Below are positions 4,453 through 43,011 of a stretch of 48,322 nucleotides of DNA, piece by piece. Position 1 is the stretch's first letter; every line of letters starts with the position of its first letter. The position numbers and the translations under genes were made by a program. The DNA lies in IMG/VR virus record IMGVR_UViG_3300036760_000253, positions 1-48,322 of that record, one strand, 5' to 3'. This stretch comes from a virus. The notes below the pieces were generated by a model, which saw only the letters and a program-made list of their open reading frames with translations, was not told the DNA's origin and did no database searches.

Positions 4453-5192
4453 TAGCGGCGCTCCGGGTACACGTCGTTACGCGTCGGCGCGCTCTGCCGG
4501 TCGGGATAGCCGACGCGCCCGGCGTGCAAGCCGCGCCCGGCCTTCTTGCGATACGCCTTCTTGATCGACGCGATGCGGTCGTCGTAGATTCCCTTGAACG
4601 CAGAACCCGGCGCGAACGCATGGCCGCGATAGAAGCCGCCGCCCTGCTGGTTGTACTCGGCCGCGCGCCATGTCATGTACATCATGATCGCGTCGTGGTA
4701 CTCGGGCGGGATGCCGCCGTACGTCGCCGTGGACGGGTCGGTGGCGTCTTGTGCGGTCGTGCCGTCGGCGGTGATCGGCGACGGACGCGGCACGTAGAAG
4801 TAGGTGAGCGTGATCGCGCTCGACGGCGCGGGCGCGACGCGCAGCAGCGTGCCCTCGATGGCCGCCTTCCAGGGAGCGTCGGTGCCGACGACCGCTCCCC
4901 CGAGGTACTGGAGCAGGTCGGTCATGTCGATGACATCCAGCTCGCGCGGGTTGTTGAGCAGGTCGGGCACGGTGATGTTGTCCACCGCGAGGATGTTCGT
5001 GTCGATGCGGTAGTCGGTGACGCCCGACTGGAGCTGCATCGTCCCGATGTCCACGTAGCACTTCGTCTTCTCCAGCACATCCACGATGCCGCGATTGCAC
5101 CACCGCTGCATGAGGATCAGCTCGTCGCTCGCTACCGTGTCGTCGAGCCCGAGAGAGCGCGAGACCTCGAAGATCATTTCGCCACGTGTCAT
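4452..5192 (-). CDS. Head-tail connector (adaptor) protein (246 aa)
   Basis: It starts at ATG 5192, coupled as TAATG to the fibre gene. The N-terminus (MTRGEMIFEVSRSLGLDD, then LILMQRWCNRGIVDVLEKT) is the helical layout common to phage adaptor/head-completion proteins that bind below the portal. A middle beta-strand region gives way to a helix (EYHDAIMMYMTWRAAEYNQ) and a basic C-terminal tail (SIKKAYRKKAGRG). Length suits the P22 gp4 / podoviral gatekeeper class. It is followed by the 524-aa tail protein, the usual connector-to-tail order. Confidence 0.75.
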   Translation of the reverse strand: MTRGEMIFEVSRSLGLDDTVASDELILMQRWCNRGIVDVLEKTKCYVDIGTMQLQSGVTDYRIDTNILAVDNITVPDLLNNPRELDVIDMTDLLQYLGGAVVGTDAPWKAAIEGTLLRVAPAPSSAITLTYFYVPRPSPITADGTTAQDATDPSTATYGGIPPEYHDAIMMYMTWRAAEYNQQGGGFYRGHAFAPGSAFKGIYDDRIASIKKAYRKKAGRGLHAGRVGYPDRQSAPTRNDVYPERR

Positions 5193-6142
5193 TACAACAC
5201 CCCATAAATCGAAAGACGGGAACCGGCGACAAAGTTTCCGGAGCTTGGGAAGATGGTGATTCGGTTAATCGCTGCCGTGCTTCGCCAGAAGCAACCAACA
5301 TCATCTATCTCCATGTTGGAGGCCGCTGTGCCCCACTTGGCGATGGTGTGAGCATGAAAGACTTTGTGGAAAGTGGTGCTCTTGTAATCGGGAATGAATA
5401 AACGATTAAACCCCGAGTACCCTGCCGGAGCTGTTGATCCAGGAAACAACAAAGCACTCATAGAAGTCGCGCCGAACGACTCGGCCGCCAGCGCCAAGCC
5501 TCCCGAAGCAGCATCACGCTCGAAGTCGTAGTTTGCTCCGCTGTCGTTGTTGAGACGGACGCTACCGCCCAAAAGAACGGAGGCGGTATCCGAACGCCCC
5601 GTACACTCGACGACAAGATGATTGTACGCCTGAGAGATACCCGACACATCGAAGTTCGCAGCCGAACCCCCCAACACAGAGTCATAGAGCTGGGCCATCG
5701 CGCCAAGAGGCCCTGCGAGCTTCGAGTTGGCAATCGCTGCGCCTGCCGCGATGTCAGCGTCAACGAGGCCCGCGCCGAAGTTGAGCTTCGAGCGCGAGAT
5801 CGCTGCACCACCGGCAACATCTGCGTCGGTAATGTTCAACGCCGCGAGCTTGGACTTGGCGATGGCTGCACCACCGGCAACGTCGGCGTCGGTGATGTTC
5901 AACGCCGCGAGCTTGGACTTCGCGATGGCGGCTGCCGGGTCGATGCTCGCGTTCGTGAGGAGCTGCGGCACGTAGTGCGTCCCTGCGGGCGTCCACACCG
6001 GCACCATGCCCGCGCTCGCCGGGTTCGCATCGAACAGTGCGAGCAGCGCAGCCTCGACGGCGTTGAGGAACGCCGAGTCGATAGGAGTGGTGAGCGTCGG
6101 CTTGTCTACGAAGCCACCCGCGTAACGCTTTGCGTATGCCAT
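5192..6142 (-). CDS. Tail fibre with tandem 21-residue repeats (316 aa)
   Basis: ATG 6142 follows the HNH stop. Residues ~1-60 form an N-terminal virion-attachment region (AYAKRYAGGFVDKPTLTTPID). Residues ~70-140 are a repeat shaft: AAIAKSKLAALNITDADVAG appears twice almost unchanged, followed by degenerate copies with ISRSKL and IANSKL. The C-terminal ~150 residues are a beta-rich tip ending RLSIYGVL, like the last strand of many phage fibre heads. The DNA for the tip (about 5190-5700) is clearly less GC-rich than the shaft, suggesting a swapped host-range module. Likely receptor-binding fibre. Confidence 0.85.
   Translation of the reverse strand: MAYAKRYAGGFVDKPTLTTPIDSAFLNAVEAALLALFDANPASAGMVPVWTPAGTHYVPQLLTNASIDPAAAIAKSKLAALNITDADVAGGAAIAKSKLAALNITDADVAGGAAISRSKLNFGAGLVDADIAAGAAIANSKLAGPLGAMAQLYDSVLGGSAANFDVSGISQAYNHLVVECTGRSDTASVLLGGSVRLNNDSGANYDFERDAASGGLALAAESFGATSMSALLFPGSTAPAGYSGFNRLFIPDYKSTTFHKVFHAHTIAKWGTAASNMEIDDVGCFWRSTAAINRITIFPSSGNFVAGSRLSIYGVL
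5802..5927 (-). repeat. 63-bp tandem direct repeat in fibre shaft
   Basis: Two head-to-tail 63-bp units (5802-5864 and 5865-5927) differ at only a few positions, and a third partial copy follows. Each encodes 21 residues containing AKSKLAALNITDADVAG. Slippage here would lengthen or shorten the fibre shaft in frame. Confidence 0.85.
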
Positions 6143-14028: not shown

Positions 14029-15765
14029 TCACACGCTCCTGCTGGGATGTGGGACGTACTCGGACGAGCGGCGCGGCTTCCGCTTCGCGGGGGCCTTGCC
14101 GAACTGACGGAACAACTCGACGGCGATCCCGAGCATCATCACTCGGTCGTCGTTACAACCTTCGAGCGCGCGCGGGCTCGGGTTCGTCTCCGCGTACGCG
14201 AAGGTTCCCAGCTCGTCTACGCACCCCGCCGACAGCCACGGGAAGAGGCGCTCCCTGATCCACGCCGAGAGACCGTCGATGATCTGCGGTCGCATCTTCG
14301 GGCCCATCGGAATGCCGTACTCCTCGGAGATCGGCTTCTTTCCCTTGGTCATGTCGGTGTGACGGTAGAGGTTCGGGTACGGGGGCAACCCCTTCGAGCC
14401 GTCCTTGAGGAACGTGATGAGCGCCTCGCCGTAACCGCCCTGCCGTTCGACCGCGATGCGCGCGGTGTTGTACCACTTGCCGAGCGCGTGGAACTGAATC
14501 GCGCTACGGGGAGCGTCGATCTTCGCGTGCAGCTCGGCGACTATCGCGCCGGTCTCCAGGTCGATGACGCCACCGCTTGTGAAGTCGTTGCTTCGGCCAG
14601 TTGACGTATCGACCGCGATTGCGTACTTGCGACCGGGCACGGGCTTTTCCCATACGTCGATGATGCCATCGCGCAGGCCGATCCAGTCCAAGGTGCGCAC
14701 GCCATGCTGCACGAACTGACCGGTGAGAGACGGGCGTCGCGTGCGGTTGCGGTAGTGCTTGAGCGCGTCACGGTCGAAGTACAGCGCGCCCGACAGCATG
14801 AAGGCGTCGTTCTCGTTGAGCGGGTACTGCTGGTTGCGCTCGACTTCGCCGAGCTTCATCGCGTACCGCTCGTACCACGCTGCGTCGCGCGTCGGCTCTG
14901 CATTCCACGGCAAGAACGCGAACCCGAGGTTGCGCTCCTTCTTGGTCGCGTAGAGCACGTGGAAGAAGTTGCCCTCTTCGGTCTCCACGTTGCCGACGCC
15001 GTTCGCCGTACTCACGATTGCGAGTCGCGCGTCGCCGCGCGCCGTCGCCGGAAGAATGGCGGTGAAAATCTGCTTGGCGTAATCCTGACGTGCGGCCTCG
15101 TCCATCAGCGCGAACGTCACGGTGTCGCCGTGTCCTGCCTTCTTCGTCGCGGGGAGCGCCTGGATCGAGCTGATGAGCCCGCTCTCCTTGTGGCGCACCT
15201 TGATCCACTCGCTCGGCTCGTCAGAGCGCGACGGCGTGAGCACCTCGACGTGATCGCGCAACGACTCGGGCAGCGAGTTGTACATCAGCCACGCGCGGGC
15301 GATGAGCTTCTTCGCCTCGTCCTCGTTGTACGAGTACGCGACGCACTTCGAGCCCGGACGGAAGAGCAGGAACCACAGCTCCAACGCCATCGCGCACCAC
15401 GTGATCCCGAGCTGCCGCGCCTTGAGACAGAGGAAGATCCTCTGCGTCGGGTCGAAGAAGAAGTTGGGGCTCCACAACGCGAGCTGCTCGTGCATGGGAT
15501 TCGGCACGCCCATCCACCAGTCGATCACCGCCGACTGGAAGAGCCACCCTTCGTCGGCGCGCGGTGCGCCGGGGAACATCCACAGCGGGTCGTCACTCGC
15601 CGGGTACATCGTGAACCTGAACTTCTCCAGCGTGGTCGGATCGAAGGCGTCAATCTCGGCGATCAACGCCTTCGGATCCGACTCTGCTGCATTCTTCACG
15701 CGGATGAGTCGCAGCTCTTCCACGAGACGGCGGCGCGCTCGGCTGAGCGCCGTGGTGCGCGCCAT
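14029..15765 (-). CDS. terL: Terminase large subunit (578 aa)
   Basis: The ATPase domain shows the terminase-type P-loop KARQLGIT (115-122), Walker B with catalytic acid FALMDEAAR (218-226) and the coupling motif VSTANG (251-256). The RNase H-like nuclease follows: AVDTSTG with D386, a conserved E440 in AVERQGG, and NDD at 538-540. It packages DNA into the procapsid through the portal and cuts concatemers. Start ATG 15765. No classical small subunit with a clear HTH is adjacent; small proteins further upstream are candidates. Confidence 0.95.
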   Translation of the reverse strand: MARTTALSRARRRLVEELRLIRVKNAAESDPKALIAEIDAFDPTTLEKFRFTMYPASDDPLWMFPGAPRADEGWLFQSAVIDWWMGVPNPMHEQLALWSPNFFFDPTQRIFLCLKARQLGITWCAMALELWFLLFRPGSKCVAYSYNEDEAKKLIARAWLMYNSLPESLRDHVEVLTPSRSDEPSEWIKVRHKESGLISSIQALPATKKAGHGDTVTFALMDEAARQDYAKQIFTAILPATARGDARLAIVSTANGVGNVETEEGNFFHVLYATKKERNLGFAFLPWNAEPTRDAAWYERYAMKLGEVERNQQYPLNENDAFMLSGALYFDRDALKHYRNRTRRPSLTGQFVQHGVRTLDWIGLRDGIIDVWEKPVPGRKYAIAVDTSTGRSNDFTSGGVIDLETGAIVAELHAKIDAPRSAIQFHALGKWYNTARIAVERQGGYGEALITFLKDGSKGLPPYPNLYRHTDMTKGKKPISEEYGIPMGPKMRPQIIDGLSAWIRERLFPWLSAGCVDELGTFAYAETNPSPRALEGCNDDRVMMLGIAVELFRQFGKAPAKRKPRRSSEYVPHPSRSV

Positions 15766-16379: not shown

Positions 16380-16442
16380 GGGACGGGCCTATTCCGAGGG
16401 GTACCTATCCCCACTTACGCGAGCACTCGGAGAACCCGTCCC
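16380..16442 (-). promoter_or_regulatory. Long nested hairpin between two late genes
   Basis: Three stems nest: GGGACGGG pairs with CCCGTCCC on the outside, TCCGAG with CTCGGA inside that, and GGGG with CCCC at the core. The element starts at the stop codon of the 134-aa gene and ends 23 nt before the next start. There is no U-tract, so mRNA processing, stabilisation or attenuation is likelier than simple termination. Confidence 0.55.
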
Positions 16443-24496: not shown

Positions 24497-24511
24497 ATGA
24501 CCGAGGCGTAG
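24497..24511 (+). CDS. Four-codon leader ORF (MTEA) before the first RNA element
   Basis: ATG ACC GAG GCG TAG follows a purine-rich ribosome site (GAGAGGAAG). A hairpin with CGCA/TGCG arms (about 24459-24478) lies just upstream. The TAG is the first conserved triplet of element E1. In three other copies the same TAG ends a real gene, so this mini-ORF seems to provide a terminating ribosome at E1. Translation is inference. Confidence 0.4.
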   Translation: MTEA

Positions 24512-24578
24512 CAGGTAGGGCGGCGCGAGCCGCCCCTCCTAGTGCGCACCCGCGTACTGCGACGAAGGAGAAGAGAAA
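24508..24578 (+). promoter_or_regulatory. Structured leader element E1
   Basis: Lower stem TAGCAG/CTCCTA has one C-C mismatch and a 3-nt GTA bulge. Upper stem GGGCGGC/GCCGCCC is capped by a GCGA (GNRA) loop. Second hairpin AGTGCGC/GCGTACT has an ACCC loop. The ribosome site GAAGGAG follows, then ATG 24579. It opens the first early cistron. Confidence 0.75.
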
Positions 24579-25001
24579 ATGAGAATCCACACCGATACGC
24601 TCACGGCACGCGACCTGCACGCCAGCCTGCCCGAAGGCGTCTACCTCGACGTCACCGCGCACGGCTCGCGTTCGCGGGCTCGTGCATTCGAGGTGACGCT
24701 CTACCTCTACGAGAAGGACGATCTGCACCGCCGCTTCGGCAACTCCGGCGGCTACCGCGCGTCAACGGACGTGGCCGCCACGTGGGACGAGTGGGGCATC
24801 TGGCTCAAAGCTCTGTACGAGCTGGACAGCGATCTGTTCTGCAACTACTATCCCACGTACCTCGACTTCGTTTCGAGCACGAGGCGGCGCCGCGACTGCG
24901 TTCGGAGCTGCAACAAGCCCGAGTCGCTCACGTGCCGCACGCACACCGCGCCCTGGCTCGCCGAGGCGCGCACGCCGAGAGAAACGCTCGGCGTCGGATG
25001 A
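24579..25001 (+). CDS. Early protein of unknown function (140 aa)
   Basis: First full early gene, starting at ATG 24579 behind element E1. The N-terminal ~100 residues are ordered, with MRIHTDTLTARDLHASLPEG, TLYLYEKDDLHRRFGNSGGY and WDEWGIWLKALYELD. Proteins with this WDEWGIWLxAL(Y/F)E(L/I)D segment are common among actinophage early genes of unknown role. The C-terminus is Cys/Arg-rich (DCVRSCNKPESLTCRTH) and may be disordered or metal-binding. Stop TGA is 1 nt before element E2. Confidence 0.75.
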   Translation: MRIHTDTLTARDLHASLPEGVYLDVTAHGSRSRARAFEVTLYLYEKDDLHRRFGNSGGYRASTDVAATWDEWGIWLKALYELDSDLFCNYYPTYLDFVSSTRRRRDCVRSCNKPESLTCRTHTAPWLAEARTPRETLGVG

Positions 25002-25002
25002 C

Positions 25003-25076
25003 GTAGCAGGTAGGCCAGCGCGAGCTGGCCCTCCTGGTGCCGCATCCCGCTGCACCACAACGAAGGAGGAGAAGTC
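25003..25076 (+). promoter_or_regulatory. Structured leader element E2
   Basis: Lower stem TAGCAG/CTCCTG (C-C mismatch, terminal U-G), GTA bulge, upper stem GGCCAGC/GCTGGCC with GCGA loop. Second hairpin GGTGC/GCACC is extended by GC/GC. ACAACGAAGGAGG ribosome site, then ATG 25077. Here the conserved TAG is 2 nt after the upstream TGA, so it is not the stop of that gene. Confidence 0.75.
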
Positions 25077-25220
25077 ATGCTCCGGTATTACCTGATCGGC
25101 ACGAGCGCAGACACAGTGGAGGAGTTCATCGGAAGCGACCTGCTTGGCGCGTTCAGTCACGCCCGAGTGCGCCGCTTCGGCTCGGCCACGCTCACCTGTT
25201 TCGGCAGCCGTCCCGCATGA
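25077..25220 (+). CDS. Small early protein (47 aa)
   Basis: ATG 25077 follows a GAAGGAGG site in element E2. The product begins MLRYYLIGTSADTVEEFIG and continues with a short Arg/Phe-rich stretch; one strand-helix unit is likely. The stop TGA overlaps the start of a 29-residue membrane peptide (ATGA), so the two are translationally coupled. No family recognised. Confidence 0.7.
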   Translation: MLRYYLIGTSADTVEEFIGSDLLGAFSHARVRRFGSATLTCFGSRPA

Positions 25221-25306
25221 ACGGCGTACTCGTCATCGGCGGCCTGGTGCTCTTCCTGTCCATCTGGACGGGCCTCATGGTCTTCATCGCGGATCACGCG
25301 AAGTAG
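25217..25306 (+). CDS. Single-span membrane micropeptide (29 aa)
   Basis: ATG 25217 overlaps the previous TGA. Almost all of it is one transmembrane helix (VLVIGGLVLFLSIWTGLMVF) with a short ADHAK tail. Its TAG is the conserved first triplet of element E3. Early phage micropeptides of this type often modify host membranes; that role is inference. Confidence 0.65.
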   Translation: MNGVLVIGGLVLFLSIWTGLMVFIADHAK

Positions 25307-25375
25307 CAGGTAGGGCCGCGCAAGCGGCTCCTCCTGGTGCTGCAATCAAGCCGCACCACAACGAAGGAGGATGAA
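25303..25375 (+). promoter_or_regulatory. Structured leader element E3
   Basis: Lower stem TAGCAG/CTCCTG, GTA bulge, upper stem GGGCCGC/GCGGCTC (one G-U pair) with GCAA loop. Second hairpin GGTGC/GCACC with inner GC/GC and AATCAA loop. The TAG ends the 29-aa gene. Ribosome site GAAGGAGG, then ATG 25376. Confidence 0.75.
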
Positions 25376-26401
25376 ATGCCTGCACTATTCGATCAGGGAT
25401 TCTTCGTGCGTGTGCCTGCTTGGCACGGCGAGGGCATCGTGCTCGCGGACTACCCCGGACGTGACGAGGCAATGCACCTCGCCGGTCACGATTGGGATGT
25501 CATCGAGCTGCCCTTCCGCGCGGAGATCGCGAACGAGGTGCTCGTCGGAGCTGGCCGCGCACCTGCGGCCGACGCAACCGGCGTGCTGCACAAGGTCGAG
25601 GGCTGGACGGTTCACGTCCGGTCGGACAACCTGCACATCCTCAACGTGGCGCGCGACTCGTTCGAGCGCATCCCGAACGGCACGGCGTACGACGTGGCCG
25701 AGCTGCTGCTCGACCAGGGCTTCAAGTACGAGGCCGGGATCACGCTGGACGGCGGGAAGCAGTGCGCACTGACGCTGCTGCTCGACGAGCCCATCACGAT
25801 CACGGGCGACGACTCGACGACCCTGCCGTACGTCGGACTGAGCTGGGCGCACGACGGCACCGCCGCCCTCAAGCTGCGGAGCACGAGCGTCCGGCAAGTC
25901 TGCGCGAACACCGTGGCGGCGTCGGAGGCCGAGGGCAAGAAACTCGGCACCGACTTCACGTTCCGCCACACGAAGAACGTACAGGAGAAGATCCAGGACG
26001 CCAAGAAGGCCATCCAGGGCGTGCGCGAGCAGTCGAACGTGTACGTGGCCGCGATGGAGGAGCTGGCCGCGATTCCGGTCTCACCGGATCAGCGGGACAT
26101 CTTCGTCAGCACGATCATCGGCGACCGGGACGGCGTTCTCTCGCAGAACGCTGCAACGACCGACCGCGTGAAGAACAACATCGAGGGCGAGCGTGCGAAG
26201 ATCAACGCGCTCTTCTTCGGGCCCACGATCCCGGAGGCTCACAAGCTCACGGGCTACGGGCTGCACCTCGCAGGAGTCGAGTACTTCGACCACCTGCGCG
26301 CGTACCGCTCGAAGGACTCGTACGTGCGGCGCACGCTGCTCGCCGACAACCCGGCGAAGGCGTCGCTCACGCGCACGATTCACGAGCTGGTCGCTGCGTA
26401 G
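25376..26401 (+). CDS. DUF932 phage/plasmid-like protein (341 aa)
   Basis: PAWHGEG near residue 15, then DEAMHLAGHDWDVIELP, are typical of the DUF932 (phage/plasmid TIGR03299) family. The core repeats strand-rich segments (LPYVGLSWAHDGTAALKLRS) and ends in a helical region (NVQEKIQDAKKAIQGVREQS). Start ATG 25376 is set by the GAAGGAGG site in element E3; an ATG in another frame at 25371 is not used. These proteins are widespread on phages and plasmids, and DNA-metabolism roles are suspected but unproven. The TAG stop belongs to E4. Confidence 0.88.
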   Translation: MPALFDQGFFVRVPAWHGEGIVLADYPGRDEAMHLAGHDWDVIELPFRAEIANEVLVGAGRAPAADATGVLHKVEGWTVHVRSDNLHILNVARDSFERIPNGTAYDVAELLLDQGFKYEAGITLDGGKQCALTLLLDEPITITGDDSTTLPYVGLSWAHDGTAALKLRSTSVRQVCANTVAASEAEGKKLGTDFTFRHTKNVQEKIQDAKKAIQGVREQSNVYVAAMEELAAIPVSPDQRDIFVSTIIGDRDGVLSQNAATTDRVKNNIEGERAKINALFFGPTIPEAHKLTGYGLHLAGVEYFDHLRAYRSKDSYVRRTLLADNPAKASLTRTIHELVAA

Positions 26402-26466
26402 CAGCTAGGGGCCCTCGGGCCCCCTGCTAGTGCGCAGTACCGCGTACTACAACGGAGGAGGAGAGA
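26398..26466 (+). promoter_or_regulatory. Structured leader element E4
   Basis: This copy has a perfect lower stem TAGCAG/CTGCTA, a CTA bulge and upper stem GGGGCC/GGCCCC with a CTCG loop in place of GNRA. Second hairpin AGTGCGC/GCGTACT. The G-for-C change in the 3' arm repairs the mismatch seen in the other copies. TAG ends the DUF932 gene; ATG 26467 follows GGAGGAGG. Confidence 0.75.
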
Positions 26467-26880
26467 ATGATTTACGGGACACATCCACAGGCTGCGAGCG
26501 GCACCGCGTTCGCCGACCTGGAGCTGCACGTGAAGGACTGCGTGCGCACGCTCCAGGAGAGCGAGGTGCGCTTCGACTGCATCATCGTGACCGGCGTGTC
26601 CGGTCTCGTGGTCGGCGCTCCGCTTGCACTGCGCCTACGCCTGCCGCTGCTCGTGCTGCGCAAGCAGAACGAGGCATCGCACGGGTACGACGGAGAGCTG
26701 CTCGGCAGTCGCATCCTCGACGCGACGAGCCGCGTGCTCTTCGTAGACGACTTCATCAGCGAGGGCGAGACGTATCGCCTCTGCCTCGAAGCGGTCGAGA
26801 AAACCGGGGCAGCAATCGTCGCGAGCTGCGAGTACGCGCGCTTCGTCCGCGAGGGCGTTGTGCGGGTGATCGAGCGATGA
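26467..26880 (+). CDS. Phosphoribosyltransferase-like protein (137 aa)
   Basis: VLFVDDFISEGET (90-102) is the PRPP-binding signature of type I phosphoribosyltransferases (two acidic residues, then a G/S-rich loop). CIIVTGVSGLVVGAPLALRL (38-57) provides the pyrophosphate-loop region. At 137 residues it is a minimal, hoodless version. It may salvage or modify a base, or bind PRPP as a regulator; no partner gene fixes the substrate. The stop overlaps the next ATG. Confidence 0.8.
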   Translation: MIYGTHPQAASGTAFADLELHVKDCVRTLQESEVRFDCIIVTGVSGLVVGAPLALRLRLPLLVLRKQNEASHGYDGELLGSRILDATSRVLFVDDFISEGETYRLCLEAVEKTGAAIVASCEYARFVREGVVRVIER

Positions 26881-27161
26881 TCCGCACGGACGGACGGCCC
26901 ACGATCTCGTCCTACGGGACGCCGATCACCCCTGTACCATCGGGGGCCGTGGCCCTCGTCGAAGACAGCCTCGCGCTCAAGGAGCGCCCTCTGCTCGAAC
27001 GTGAAGCAGCGGGGCTCGTGATCGAGGTTGTGCTCATCGGCGGCGGGCCCGTCGTGCGCATCACGGAGGCGAAAGGCACGGCGGACGAGCGCGAGCTTGT
27101 CGGCATCGTGCCGCCGGACAAAGTGCTCGACGCCTTCGAGCATCCCTACCTGTACGTGTAG
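26877..27161 (+). CDS. Small early protein (94 aa)
   Basis: ATG 26877 overlaps the TGA of the phosphoribosyltransferase gene (ATGA), so the two are co-translated. Residues ~45-60 (GLVIEVVLIGGGPVVRI) form a beta hairpin, and the C-terminus (PDKVLDAFEHPYLYV) a helix. No family recognised. Its TAG is the first triplet of element E5. Confidence 0.7.
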   Translation: MIRTDGRPTISSYGTPITPVPSGAVALVEDSLALKERPLLEREAAGLVIEVVLIGGGPVVRITEAKGTADERELVGIVPPDKVLDAFEHPYLYV

Positions 27162-27231
27162 CGGGTAGCGCAGCGCGAGCTGCGCCTCCCGGTGCGCATA
27201 CGCGCATCACACTCGACAAGGAGGAAGGGAC
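27158..27231 (+). promoter_or_regulatory. Structured leader element E5
   Basis: The lower stem TAGCGG/CTCCCG is the weakest of the five. GTA bulge, then upper stem GCGCAGC/GCTGCGC with GCGA loop. Second hairpin GGTGCGC/GCGCATC with ATAC loop. Ribosome site AAGGAGG, then ATG 27232. TAG ends the 94-aa gene. Confidence 0.72.
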
Positions 27232-27576
27232 ATGCAGGCATCGAAAATCAAGGTGGGCGATTGGGAAGACACCGAGCGACGGCGCAACGCACAGGCCGCA
27301 GCGCGGAGCACGAACGACCGGCGCATTCTCGGCGAGGCCGAGGCGTTCGAGTGGTCGGAGATCATCGCGACCACCTCGCTGCTCAAGGCCGCCGGACTCA
27401 AGAACGTGGCCGAGGGCCCTGGTGGTCTGAGCTGGGACGGCGGAAGCCTCTCGTTCAAGAGAGAGCGCACCTCCGACAACCACGTGCTCATCACGGGATG
27501 GTCGAAGGCGGCGCAGATCGAACGCGAGCACCTGTTCGAGCTGCTCAACGCAGTGGCCGACAGTCGTGTCGCATGA
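27232..27576 (+). CDS. Early protein of unknown function (114 aa)
   Basis: ATG 27232 behind element E5. A basic, helical N-terminus (DTERRRNAQAAARSTNDRRI) precedes a strand-rich part (GGLSWDGGSLSFKRERTSDN) and a C-terminal helix (AAQIEREHLFELLNAV). The stop is ATGA-coupled to a zinc-finger gene. No known domain. Confidence 0.7.
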   Translation: MQASKIKVGDWEDTERRRNAQAAARSTNDRRILGEAEAFEWSEIIATTSLLKAAGLKNVAEGPGGLSWDGGSLSFKRERTSDNHVLITGWSKAAQIEREHLFELLNAVADSRVA

Positions 27577-42006: not shown

Positions 42007-43011
42007 CTAGGCGAAACGACGTGCGCCGACGAAATCCTTACGTCCGGCGAGATTCGAGACCCTGACGTGAAGGCCAGAGCCGGGGGCCTCGATAAAACGG
42101 CCATTGCCGATGTACATGCCCTCGTGTCCCGGCTTGCCGTTCTTCGGATCGGCCCCCGTGAAGAAAACGGCGTCGCCCGGCTTGAGGTTCTGCACGGGCA
42201 CCTGCTGGCCCGCGTCCCACTGTTCGTACGTCGTGCGCGGCACCTTCACGCCGAGCTGACTCCACACGGTCTGCACGAGCCCCGAGCAGTCGAAGCCGGT
42301 TTGCGCGTTCGTGCCGCCCCAGGCGTACTTGACGCCGAGGTATTTCTTCACGAGCTGCGCGGCCGAGGTGTCTAGAGGGCCCGCCTGCTGCACGGCCGGG
42401 GCCGTCATCGTAGGCACGGCACTCTTGAGCTTGGCGAAGAGGGGAGCGAGCTGCGCGAGCTGGTCGGTCGGCTGGGCCGAGCCCGAGCCGATGGCCGCGA
42501 GGCCGTCCTGGGCCTGCTGACGGATCGCCTCAGCGCCGCCGAGCGGAGATCCGGGGGTAGGGGTCGAACCTACGCCTGCGGCGTCAGGGGCCGCCATCCT
42601 GCCATTAGACGACCCCGGAGCGGTCGCGGTGGTGCCGAGCACCTTCGAGGCGTACGTGAGCCCGTGCGTGCTCGTGGGCTGGCCGGAGACCCAGGTCGAG
42701 AGTCCGGCCGCAGGATCGCCTTGCCCGGTCTTGAGGTACGAGACGAGCCCGGCGTAGTGCGGGCTCGAGAGGAGCGTCCGAGCGAACGCCTTAGCACCCT
42801 GCGCGAGCGTGCTGTACGACTGCACGCCGACGGAGTTGATCGGCTTCGAGCCCGGCATCTGCTCGGTCGTATTCAGGTAGTTGTAGCGCGCGTCGTTGTT
42901 CGTGTGCCCGCCTTCCCACGGCTGCCACTTGTCGAGCAACGCGACGGCCTGCGGTGTCGGCTTCGCGCCGAGCGCCCGGAGGTAGACCGTCTGCCACGAT
43001 GGTGCGCTCAT
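42007..43011 (-). CDS. Two-domain peptidoglycan hydrolase with NlpC/P60 C-terminus (334 aa)
   Basis: N-terminal ~120 residues (VYLRALGAKPTPQAVALLDK ... LNTTEQMPGS ... SYSTLAQGAKAFARTLLSSP) resemble the small helical wall-binding or lysozyme-like domain found on many phage lysins. The NlpC/P60 peptidase has FDCSGL (C242), H296 in KPGHEGMYIGNG and a third polar residue near FIEAP. The linker (~130-157) is Gly/Pro/Ser-rich, and the DNA coding for it contains a full tRNA (42549-42619) on the same strand. ATGA overlap with the giant gene. Virion-borne or lysis hydrolase. Confidence 0.88.
   Translation of the reverse strand: MSAPSWQTVYLRALGAKPTPQAVALLDKWQPWEGGHTNNDARYNYLNTTEQMPGSKPINSVGVQSYSTLAQGAKAFARTLLSSPHYAGLVSYLKTGQGDPAAGLSTWVSGQPTSTHGLTYASKVLGTTATAPGSSNGRMAAPDAAGVGSTPTPGSPLGGAEAIRQQAQDGLAAIGSGSAQPTDQLAQLAPLFAKLKSAVPTMTAPAVQQAGPLDTSAAQLVKKYLGVKYAWGGTNAQTGFDCSGLVQTVWSQLGVKVPRTTYEQWDAGQQVPVQNLKPGDAVFFTGADPKNGKPGHEGMYIGNGRFIEAPGSGLHVRVSNLAGRKDFVGARRFA
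42549..42619 (-). tRNA. Cloverleaf tRNA inside a coding gene, best read as tRNA-Gln(CUG)
   Basis: All arms fold: acceptor TCCGGGG/CCCCGGA, D arm GTCT/GGAT with AATGGCA loop, anticodon stem GCGGC/GCCGC with loop CCCTGAC, variable AGGC, T arm GTAGG/CCTAC with loop TTCGACC, and discriminator T. U8, A14, G18-G19, A21 and the T-loop consensus are present. U1-A72 is typical of tRNA-Gln. Position 33 is C, not the near-invariant U, and no CCA is encoded. It lies entirely within codons ~131-154 of the NlpC/P60 gene, same strand. Confidence 0.7.

Follow-up and report, generated by a model that had tools for sequence, protein, structure and literature searches.

What is the function of a hairpin that recurs between the genes of a single phage operon? 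The question is raised by the 48,322-base IMG/VR virus record IMGVR_UViG_3300036760_000253, which was analyzed whole and is called the window here, and in which five copies (E1 to E5) of a two-hairpin RNA element precede gene starts. The motif TAGCRGSTAG-N10-20-CTSCYRGTG has five matches in the window, all on the plus strand, with 0.00 expected in shuffled windows; the TAGC starts of E1 to E5 lie at 24509, 25004, 25304, 26399, and 27159. An earlier note on this DNA had announced the same five copies, placing each start one base too low, and its description of their upper stems, tetraloops, second hairpins, GGAG-type Shine-Dalgarno (SD) sequences, and ATG codons agrees with ours. Comparison of the roughly 50 copies now known, from about 20 uncultured virus contigs, shows, as far as alignment can, a core hairpin with a UA/CU-type internal loop, a pairing between strands termed A and B, an alternative pairing of B with a strand C, and then an open SD and ATG. 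We tentatively read these cis-acting intercistronic elements as a bistable switch that may be set by translation of the upstream gene and reset when the ribosome terminates there, a reading to which we give somewhat less than an even chance.

Hairpin 1 and its internal loop

Numbered from the U of UAG, hairpin 1 consists of a 4-bp lower stem (C4-R5-G6-S7 with S34-C35-Y36-R37), a 2x2 internal loop (U8A9/C32U33), and an upper stem of 6 to 7 bp that opens at G10-C31. The lower stem had been drawn before as TAGCAG against CTCCT(A/G) with a 3-nt bulge, but this register is wrong; TAG sits in the A:B helix described below. All 10 pairs tested vary on both sides among 45 copies. Cells are paired in 98.0% of cases against 68.2% in shuffles, the former figure being inflated since some of the copies were collected by a scan in which pairing was required; the window copies and those found with the GGAGG pattern described below were obtained without any such requirement. 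The covariation score is 0.715 against 0.142 for shuffled sets, with none of 500 shuffles reaching it and the best register slide at 0.152, and 17 seed copies agree. Selection on RNA structure, first proposed from the window alone, is borne out by these many additional copies and by covariation well beyond shuffles and register slides, and the structure of the element is strongly supported by the comparison.

The internal loop reads UA/CU in 45 of the 50 copies, UU/UU in two, UG/UG in two, and UG/UU in one, replacements that would preserve wobble-like pairs (A.C, G.U, U.U). When the loop was swapped in the search pattern, UA/CU gave 39 matches and other 2x2 loops a mean of 6.6, AG/TA being the same sites on the opposite strand. 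The terminal loop has four bases in 38 of 50 copies, mainly GNRA, UCAC, or UUCG. Junction hairpins of like shape, with loops UG/UG, UG/UU, and A/GU, occur at L276:1640-5400 (G006) and form a possible bridge to remoter relatives.

One strand with two partners

Hairpin 2, made up of strands B and C, stands ahead of the SD in 31 of 32 copies of the UAG type (class I). Its pair at position 40 is G-C, A-U, or G-U in these copies. The switch between A-T and G-C that had been noticed at the outermost pair of hairpin 2 recurs in the wider set (G-C 21, A-U 7, C-G 3), and position 37 tracks hairpin 2 and not C4, which remains C with A37 in nearly all copies.

Strand A, the nucleotides before UAG, pairs with strand B (U39, R40, and 41 to 45), the opening nucleotides of hairpin 2. 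Neither A:B nor B:C served as a search criterion. Among 31 copies, 80.6% of A:B cells are paired against 60.4% after shuffling, and the covariation score is 0.539 against 0.219 (0/500 shuffles; register slides at most 0.146). Pairing also exceeds that expected under permutation within lineages (74.4% against 54.5%, p<2e-4), and the pair -2/42 is C-G in 14 copies, A-U in 6, U-A in 2, and G-C in 2. Eight copies outside the set from which the idea was formed, one of them probably a chance match, give a Fisher p=1.2e-5. Strands A and C are alike, for example TGACGTAG and TGACGTACT in copy b of G007, because both are complementary to B; a target-site duplication as the source of this likeness was rejected, as B varies along with both. 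Since strand B is shared, B:C and A:B, the helix in which the stop codon of the upstream gene is buried, are mutually exclusive. The copies present two exclusive helices, each with covariation, as would be looked for in a bistable switch, and an alternative fold of A:B against B:C, different from the CTCC-SD pairing considered below, is supported.

This pairing also bears on the stop codon, which had been described as built into the element. UAG stands ahead of 26 of the 50 copies and is used as the stop in only about 17, and TAG is not clearly enriched among used stops at copies (20/46, against 98/290 for long open reading frames, ORFs). The pair U1-R40 is U-G, U-A, or C-G, which accounts for the retention of UAG in copies that use another stop. 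UAG appears better explained as a part of strand A, pairing with GUR, than as an obligatory stop. What stands of the built-in stop is that UAG is the used stop in some copies, among them E1 (a 4-codon ORF), E3, E4, and E5, with E2 instead following the TGA at 24999-25001; it is not clearly enriched, and the TGA type replaces it at orthologous junctions.

Placement at gene junctions

Copies of the TGA type (class II) have a TGA stop, the strands TGATCCTGCGGG..CCCGCAAG, a longer lower stem reaching into the stop codon, and no hairpin 2. The PVPDWAR gene provides an orthologous junction of G004 and G016 at which class I in one phage is matched by class II in the other, a swap which implies that the classes are interchangeable. 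The used stop lies 3-13 nt upstream of hairpin 1 in 46 of 50 copies, and the genes downstream fall into about 38 unrelated clusters. In the window, the hairpin is found at all five non-overlapping junctions of the operon; in the G004 operon, it is found at nine non-overlapping junctions (seven UA/CU and two UGC/CAU variants) and is absent from the six overlapping ones. In the related contigs of G004 and G016, the element operon is immediately preceded by about 0.9-1 kb of non-coding DNA that is rich in GC and in hairpins, contains CCTACG/CGTAGG repeats, and has no Rfam match (L272 ~4530-5590, or G004:15027-16087; L296 ~4780-5660, or G016:50781-51662); it may be a large structured RNA or a replication origin.

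Hairpins of different design are present at other junctions in G002, G006, and G009. The G009 copies at L274:3283, 3655, and 5073 have no nearby SD and a core of CCGGTAG..CTCCGG or CGGGTAG..CTCCCG, followed by more hairpins. At L302:5133-5195 (G002), the SD GAGGAGG is buried in a long hairpin by CCTCCTC straight after a TGA stop, the reverse of the element's design.

Distribution among uncultured phages

A pattern in which covarying positions were left free and a downstream GGAGG was included matched 7 stretches among 2.9 million viral contigs, with stems paired in all copies there, and covariance-model and core-pattern searches widened the set to its present size, with copies clustered as runs in one region. 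The further copies that the earlier note had expected a covariance model to find do exist in uncultured phages, and in the ten nearest isolated phages the model gave nothing significant. A consensus blastn search of isolated phages returned chance matches only, a pattern search of 395 actinomycete genomes found no copy, and the covariance model found none in 297 actinomycete genomes, a weak search with no positive control. The UU/UU pattern gave 10 stretches, mostly chance, with L358 the sole match with paired stems apart from two copies already known. Wide-pattern scans of genome contigs and viral contigs gave mostly chance among the matches listed, the genome scan being uninformative. Against 4227 Rfam families at the curated threshold, the window gives tRNA only and the elements one sub-threshold chance match; Rfam has no entry for this structured RNA family.

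By protein comparison, the closest isolates, at less than 40% identity, are for the most part actinobacteriophages, and the carriers likely have actinobacterial hosts. In an all-against-all protein comparison, one lineage (G000, G002, G005, G007, G008, and G009) has terminase, portal, and other structural proteins in common, a second is made up of G004, G006, G014, G016, G020, G022, and G023, and G003 stands apart from both; no protein family present in every carrier was found. Presence in unrelated lineages without a common family implies that the element moved or persisted independently of virion genes. As these lineages share the loop but no gene, a protein partner, if any, is more likely to be encoded by the host: a phage-encoded recognizer was rejected for want of a family common to all carriers, and a recognizer of the UA/CU loop, if one exists, is probably host-encoded.

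Access to the Shine-Dalgarno sequence

Compared with controls that have a shuffled upstream sequence, the SD is more open (openness 0.56 against 0.40, p=9e-7; 39 of 47 copies), so the resting fold leaves it exposed. Predicted populations in free RNA are 0.44 for A:B and 0.30 for B:C. Masking strand A in silico brings B:C up to 0.70 and does not close the SD. When 12 nt from the stop are masked, the predicted openness of the SD falls from 0.58 to 0.30 in the UAG type and from 0.61 to 0.28 in the TGA type because the released CUCC pairs with the SD. It had been suggested that CTCC in the lower stem could hide the SD by an alternative fold, but the SD is open in free RNA, and CTGC replaces CTCC in copies whose SD is unchanged. 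The pairing does form in silico when the 5' strand is masked, as it would be by a ribosome melting hairpin 1, mainly in G7 copies, while several copies fail to form it. CTCC-SD masking as a general mechanism was rejected in its original form.

A possible switch and its rivals

In the proposed switch, A:B and B:C would be nearly equal in stability without a ribosome. A terminating ribosome on the stop codon would occlude strand A together with the 5' side of hairpin 1, and B would shift to C; upon its departure, hairpin 1 would re-form and the SD would again be exposed for an independent 30S subunit. The downstream start would be insulated from, yet responsive to, the ribosome finishing the preceding gene. 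Downstream expression could go either up or down, with folding predicting reduced SD access during the ribosome's stay on the stop. On this model, the element probably coordinates translation of adjacent genes. More doubtful is the idea of a standard, repeatable termination-sensing module, in which the stop would be paired in a hairpin and the inner strand handed to a second hairpin at termination, coordinating neighboring operon genes. Phages from two or more unrelated lineages use the element, and the genes that follow it number in the dozens and are unrelated. If the switch is real, it would be a modular part placed at junctions to couple neighboring genes of an operon or insulate them from each other, which has long been a question in compact phage genomes, and it would be useful for synthetic operons. 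The conserved UA/CU loop also hints at a partner, probably from the host.

Several observations count against the switch. The TGA-type copies of G004 and G016 have A:B without hairpin 2, so B:C is not needed everywhere. Copies G006_601 and G003_25246 have no upstream ORF and are placed like 5' leaders; a leader ORF, considered as obligatory before leading copies, was not seen for either. Several C7 copies do not show the predicted closure of the SD, the folding energies, at 37 C, disregard proteins and co-transcriptional folding, and a purely thermodynamic switch leaves the conserved UA/CU loop unexplained.

The main rival is processing by RNase III, in which the host enzyme would cut the extended A:B hairpin at its internal loop or close to it, the cistrons would separate, and the new 5' end would refold as hairpin 2. 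To our knowledge, RNase III sites are not usually letter-conserved in the internal loop, and a UA/CU kept to the letter in 45 of 50 copies would be unusual for one. The intercistronic position suits such processing, a host enzyme would account for sharing among unrelated phage lineages, and A:B with the lower and upper stems gives a double-stranded intercistronic hairpin of about 20 bp with internal loops, as expected of a site, although the helix shrinks to about 13 bp if A:B is left out. The Streptomyces coelicolor enzyme cleaves an intergenic hairpin on both sides of its 4/4 internal loop (PMC10126417), and R1.1, located between T7 genes 1.0 and 1.1, contains a 4/5 internal loop (PMC6121014). 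We regard processing as unlikely.

Alternatively, the element may be static, a stabilizer or standby site whose stable hairpin downstream of the stop, together with an A/C-rich linker, keeps the SD single-stranded and protects the mRNA with no switching. The open SD, the stable tetraloops (GNRA, UUCG, UCAC), and the other hairpins at other junctions of the same phages agree with this, but it predicts neither a strand B complementary to both A and C nor the UA/CU loop, and we consider it quite unlikely. Regulation of the operon through a specific RNA-binding protein that recognizes the UA/CU loop would fit the excess of UA/CU in the loop-swap scan and the wobble-like pairs retained in UU/UU and UG/UG; it is nonetheless improbable, as the lack of a family common to all carriers makes a phage protein unlikely and the searches of actinomycete genomes described above found no copies. 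An intrinsic terminator, promoter, or DNA-origin repeat, to which hairpins between genes might point, is very improbable given that no U-tract or promoter was found at the copies, that these lie inside operons, and that the stems vary freely with compensation, unlike a DNA site.

Features of the window

Table 1. Parts of the five element copies and the operon that they serve, in window coordinates
Feature	Position	Strand	Basis
4-codon ORF before E1, ATG ACC GAG GCG TAG	24497..24511	+	Sequence; GAGAGGAAG upstream
E1 strand A (nt -5 to -1 plus U1 A2), partner of strand B	24504..24510	+	Pairing/covariation analysis
E1 hairpin 1, UA/CU internal loop, GCGA loop	24512..24541	+	Motif scan, covariation
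E1 hairpin 2 (strands B + C), AGTGCGC/GCGTACT	24541..24558	+	Folding of copies
E1 SD AAGGAG, ahead of ATG 24579	24565..24570	+	Sequence
E2 hairpin 1; UAG 25004-25006 not the used stop	25007..25036	+	Motif scan
E2 hairpin 2, GGTGC/GCACC	25036..25056	+	
E2 SD AAGGAGGAG, ahead of ATG 25077	25063..25071	+	Sequence
E3 UAG, stop of ORF 25217-25306	25304..25306	+	Sequence
E3 hairpin 1, GCAA loop	25307..25336	+	Motif scan
E3 hairpin 2, GGTGC/GCACC	25336..25357	+	
E4 UAG, stop of DUF932 gene 25376-26401	26399..26401	+	
E4 hairpin 1, lower stem CAGC/GCTA, hence no CTCC	26402..26429	+	Motif scan
E4 hairpin 2, AGTGCGC/GCGTACT	26429..26448	+	
E5 UAG, stop of ORF 26877-27161	27159..27161	+	Sequence
E5 hairpin 1, lower stem CGGG/CCCG	27162..27191	+	Motif scan
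E5 hairpin 2, GGTGCGC/GCGCATC	27191..27208	+	
Operon served by E1-E5	24579..27576	+	Seven genes
Operon genes 1-3	24579-25001, 25077-25220, 25217-25306	+	
Operon genes 4-5	25376-26401 (DUF932), 26467-26880 (phosphoribosyltransferase-like)	+	
Operon genes 6-7	26877-27161, 27232-27576	+	

Elsewhere in the window, the large terminase (14029-15765, minus strand) has about 28% identity to the nearest deposited phages, which indicates a lineage without close isolates, and a single tRNA gene, tRNA-Gln (CTG), at 42548-42619 on the minus strand adjoins structural genes.

Comparison with known systems

Attenuators and translational-coupling switches work through mutually exclusive helices, a middle strand having two partners and a ribosome masking one of them. 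The element resembles these in its three strands, the middle one with two partners, of which a ribosome would mask one. It differs in having no leader-peptide logic or U-tract and in being repeated at each junction, and its input would be termination on the previous gene.

The start-associated sequences (SAS and ESAS) of cluster K mycobacteriophages, named before as the nearest parallel, are one in position only. The SAS is a 13-bp motif, GGGATAGGAGCCC, located 3-7 bp ahead of starts, and the ESAS are 17-bp inverted repeats judged not to support RNA pairing (PMC3203893). Like the element, they occur in many copies before the starts of non-structural genes, in larger intergenic gaps of actinobacterial phages (PMC3203893). 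Unlike the element, the SAS motif lies over the SD, and the window has one match to it with 2 mismatches, at 16399 on the minus strand, with 0.93 expected, which is chance level. Stems here covary strongly, unlike those of the ESAS; with the SAS sequence absent and covariation present, the element belongs to neither.

T7 R1.1 likewise lies between cistrons of a phage operon and forms a hairpin with an internal loop, but its 4/5 loop is asymmetric, and no stop-codon pairing or second hairpin is mentioned for it (PMC6121014). The Streptomyces rpsO-pnp hairpin is intergenic, has a symmetric internal loop, and is actinobacterial; its loop, however, is 4/4, and it is a single host locus and a known RNase III target (PMC10126417). 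The split initiation regions of T4 gene 25 and gene 38 also involve phage mRNA structure at the initiation region, which in T4 affects translation, but the structure there lies between SD and AUG (PMC3014915), whereas here it lies between stop and SD, with the SD downstream of both hairpins. No description of stop-codon pairing combined with repeated use was found in the literature searched. Structured intercistronic RNA is a known kind, and within it, to judge from that literature, the pairing of the stop codon and the repeated use at successive junctions appear to be the new aspects.

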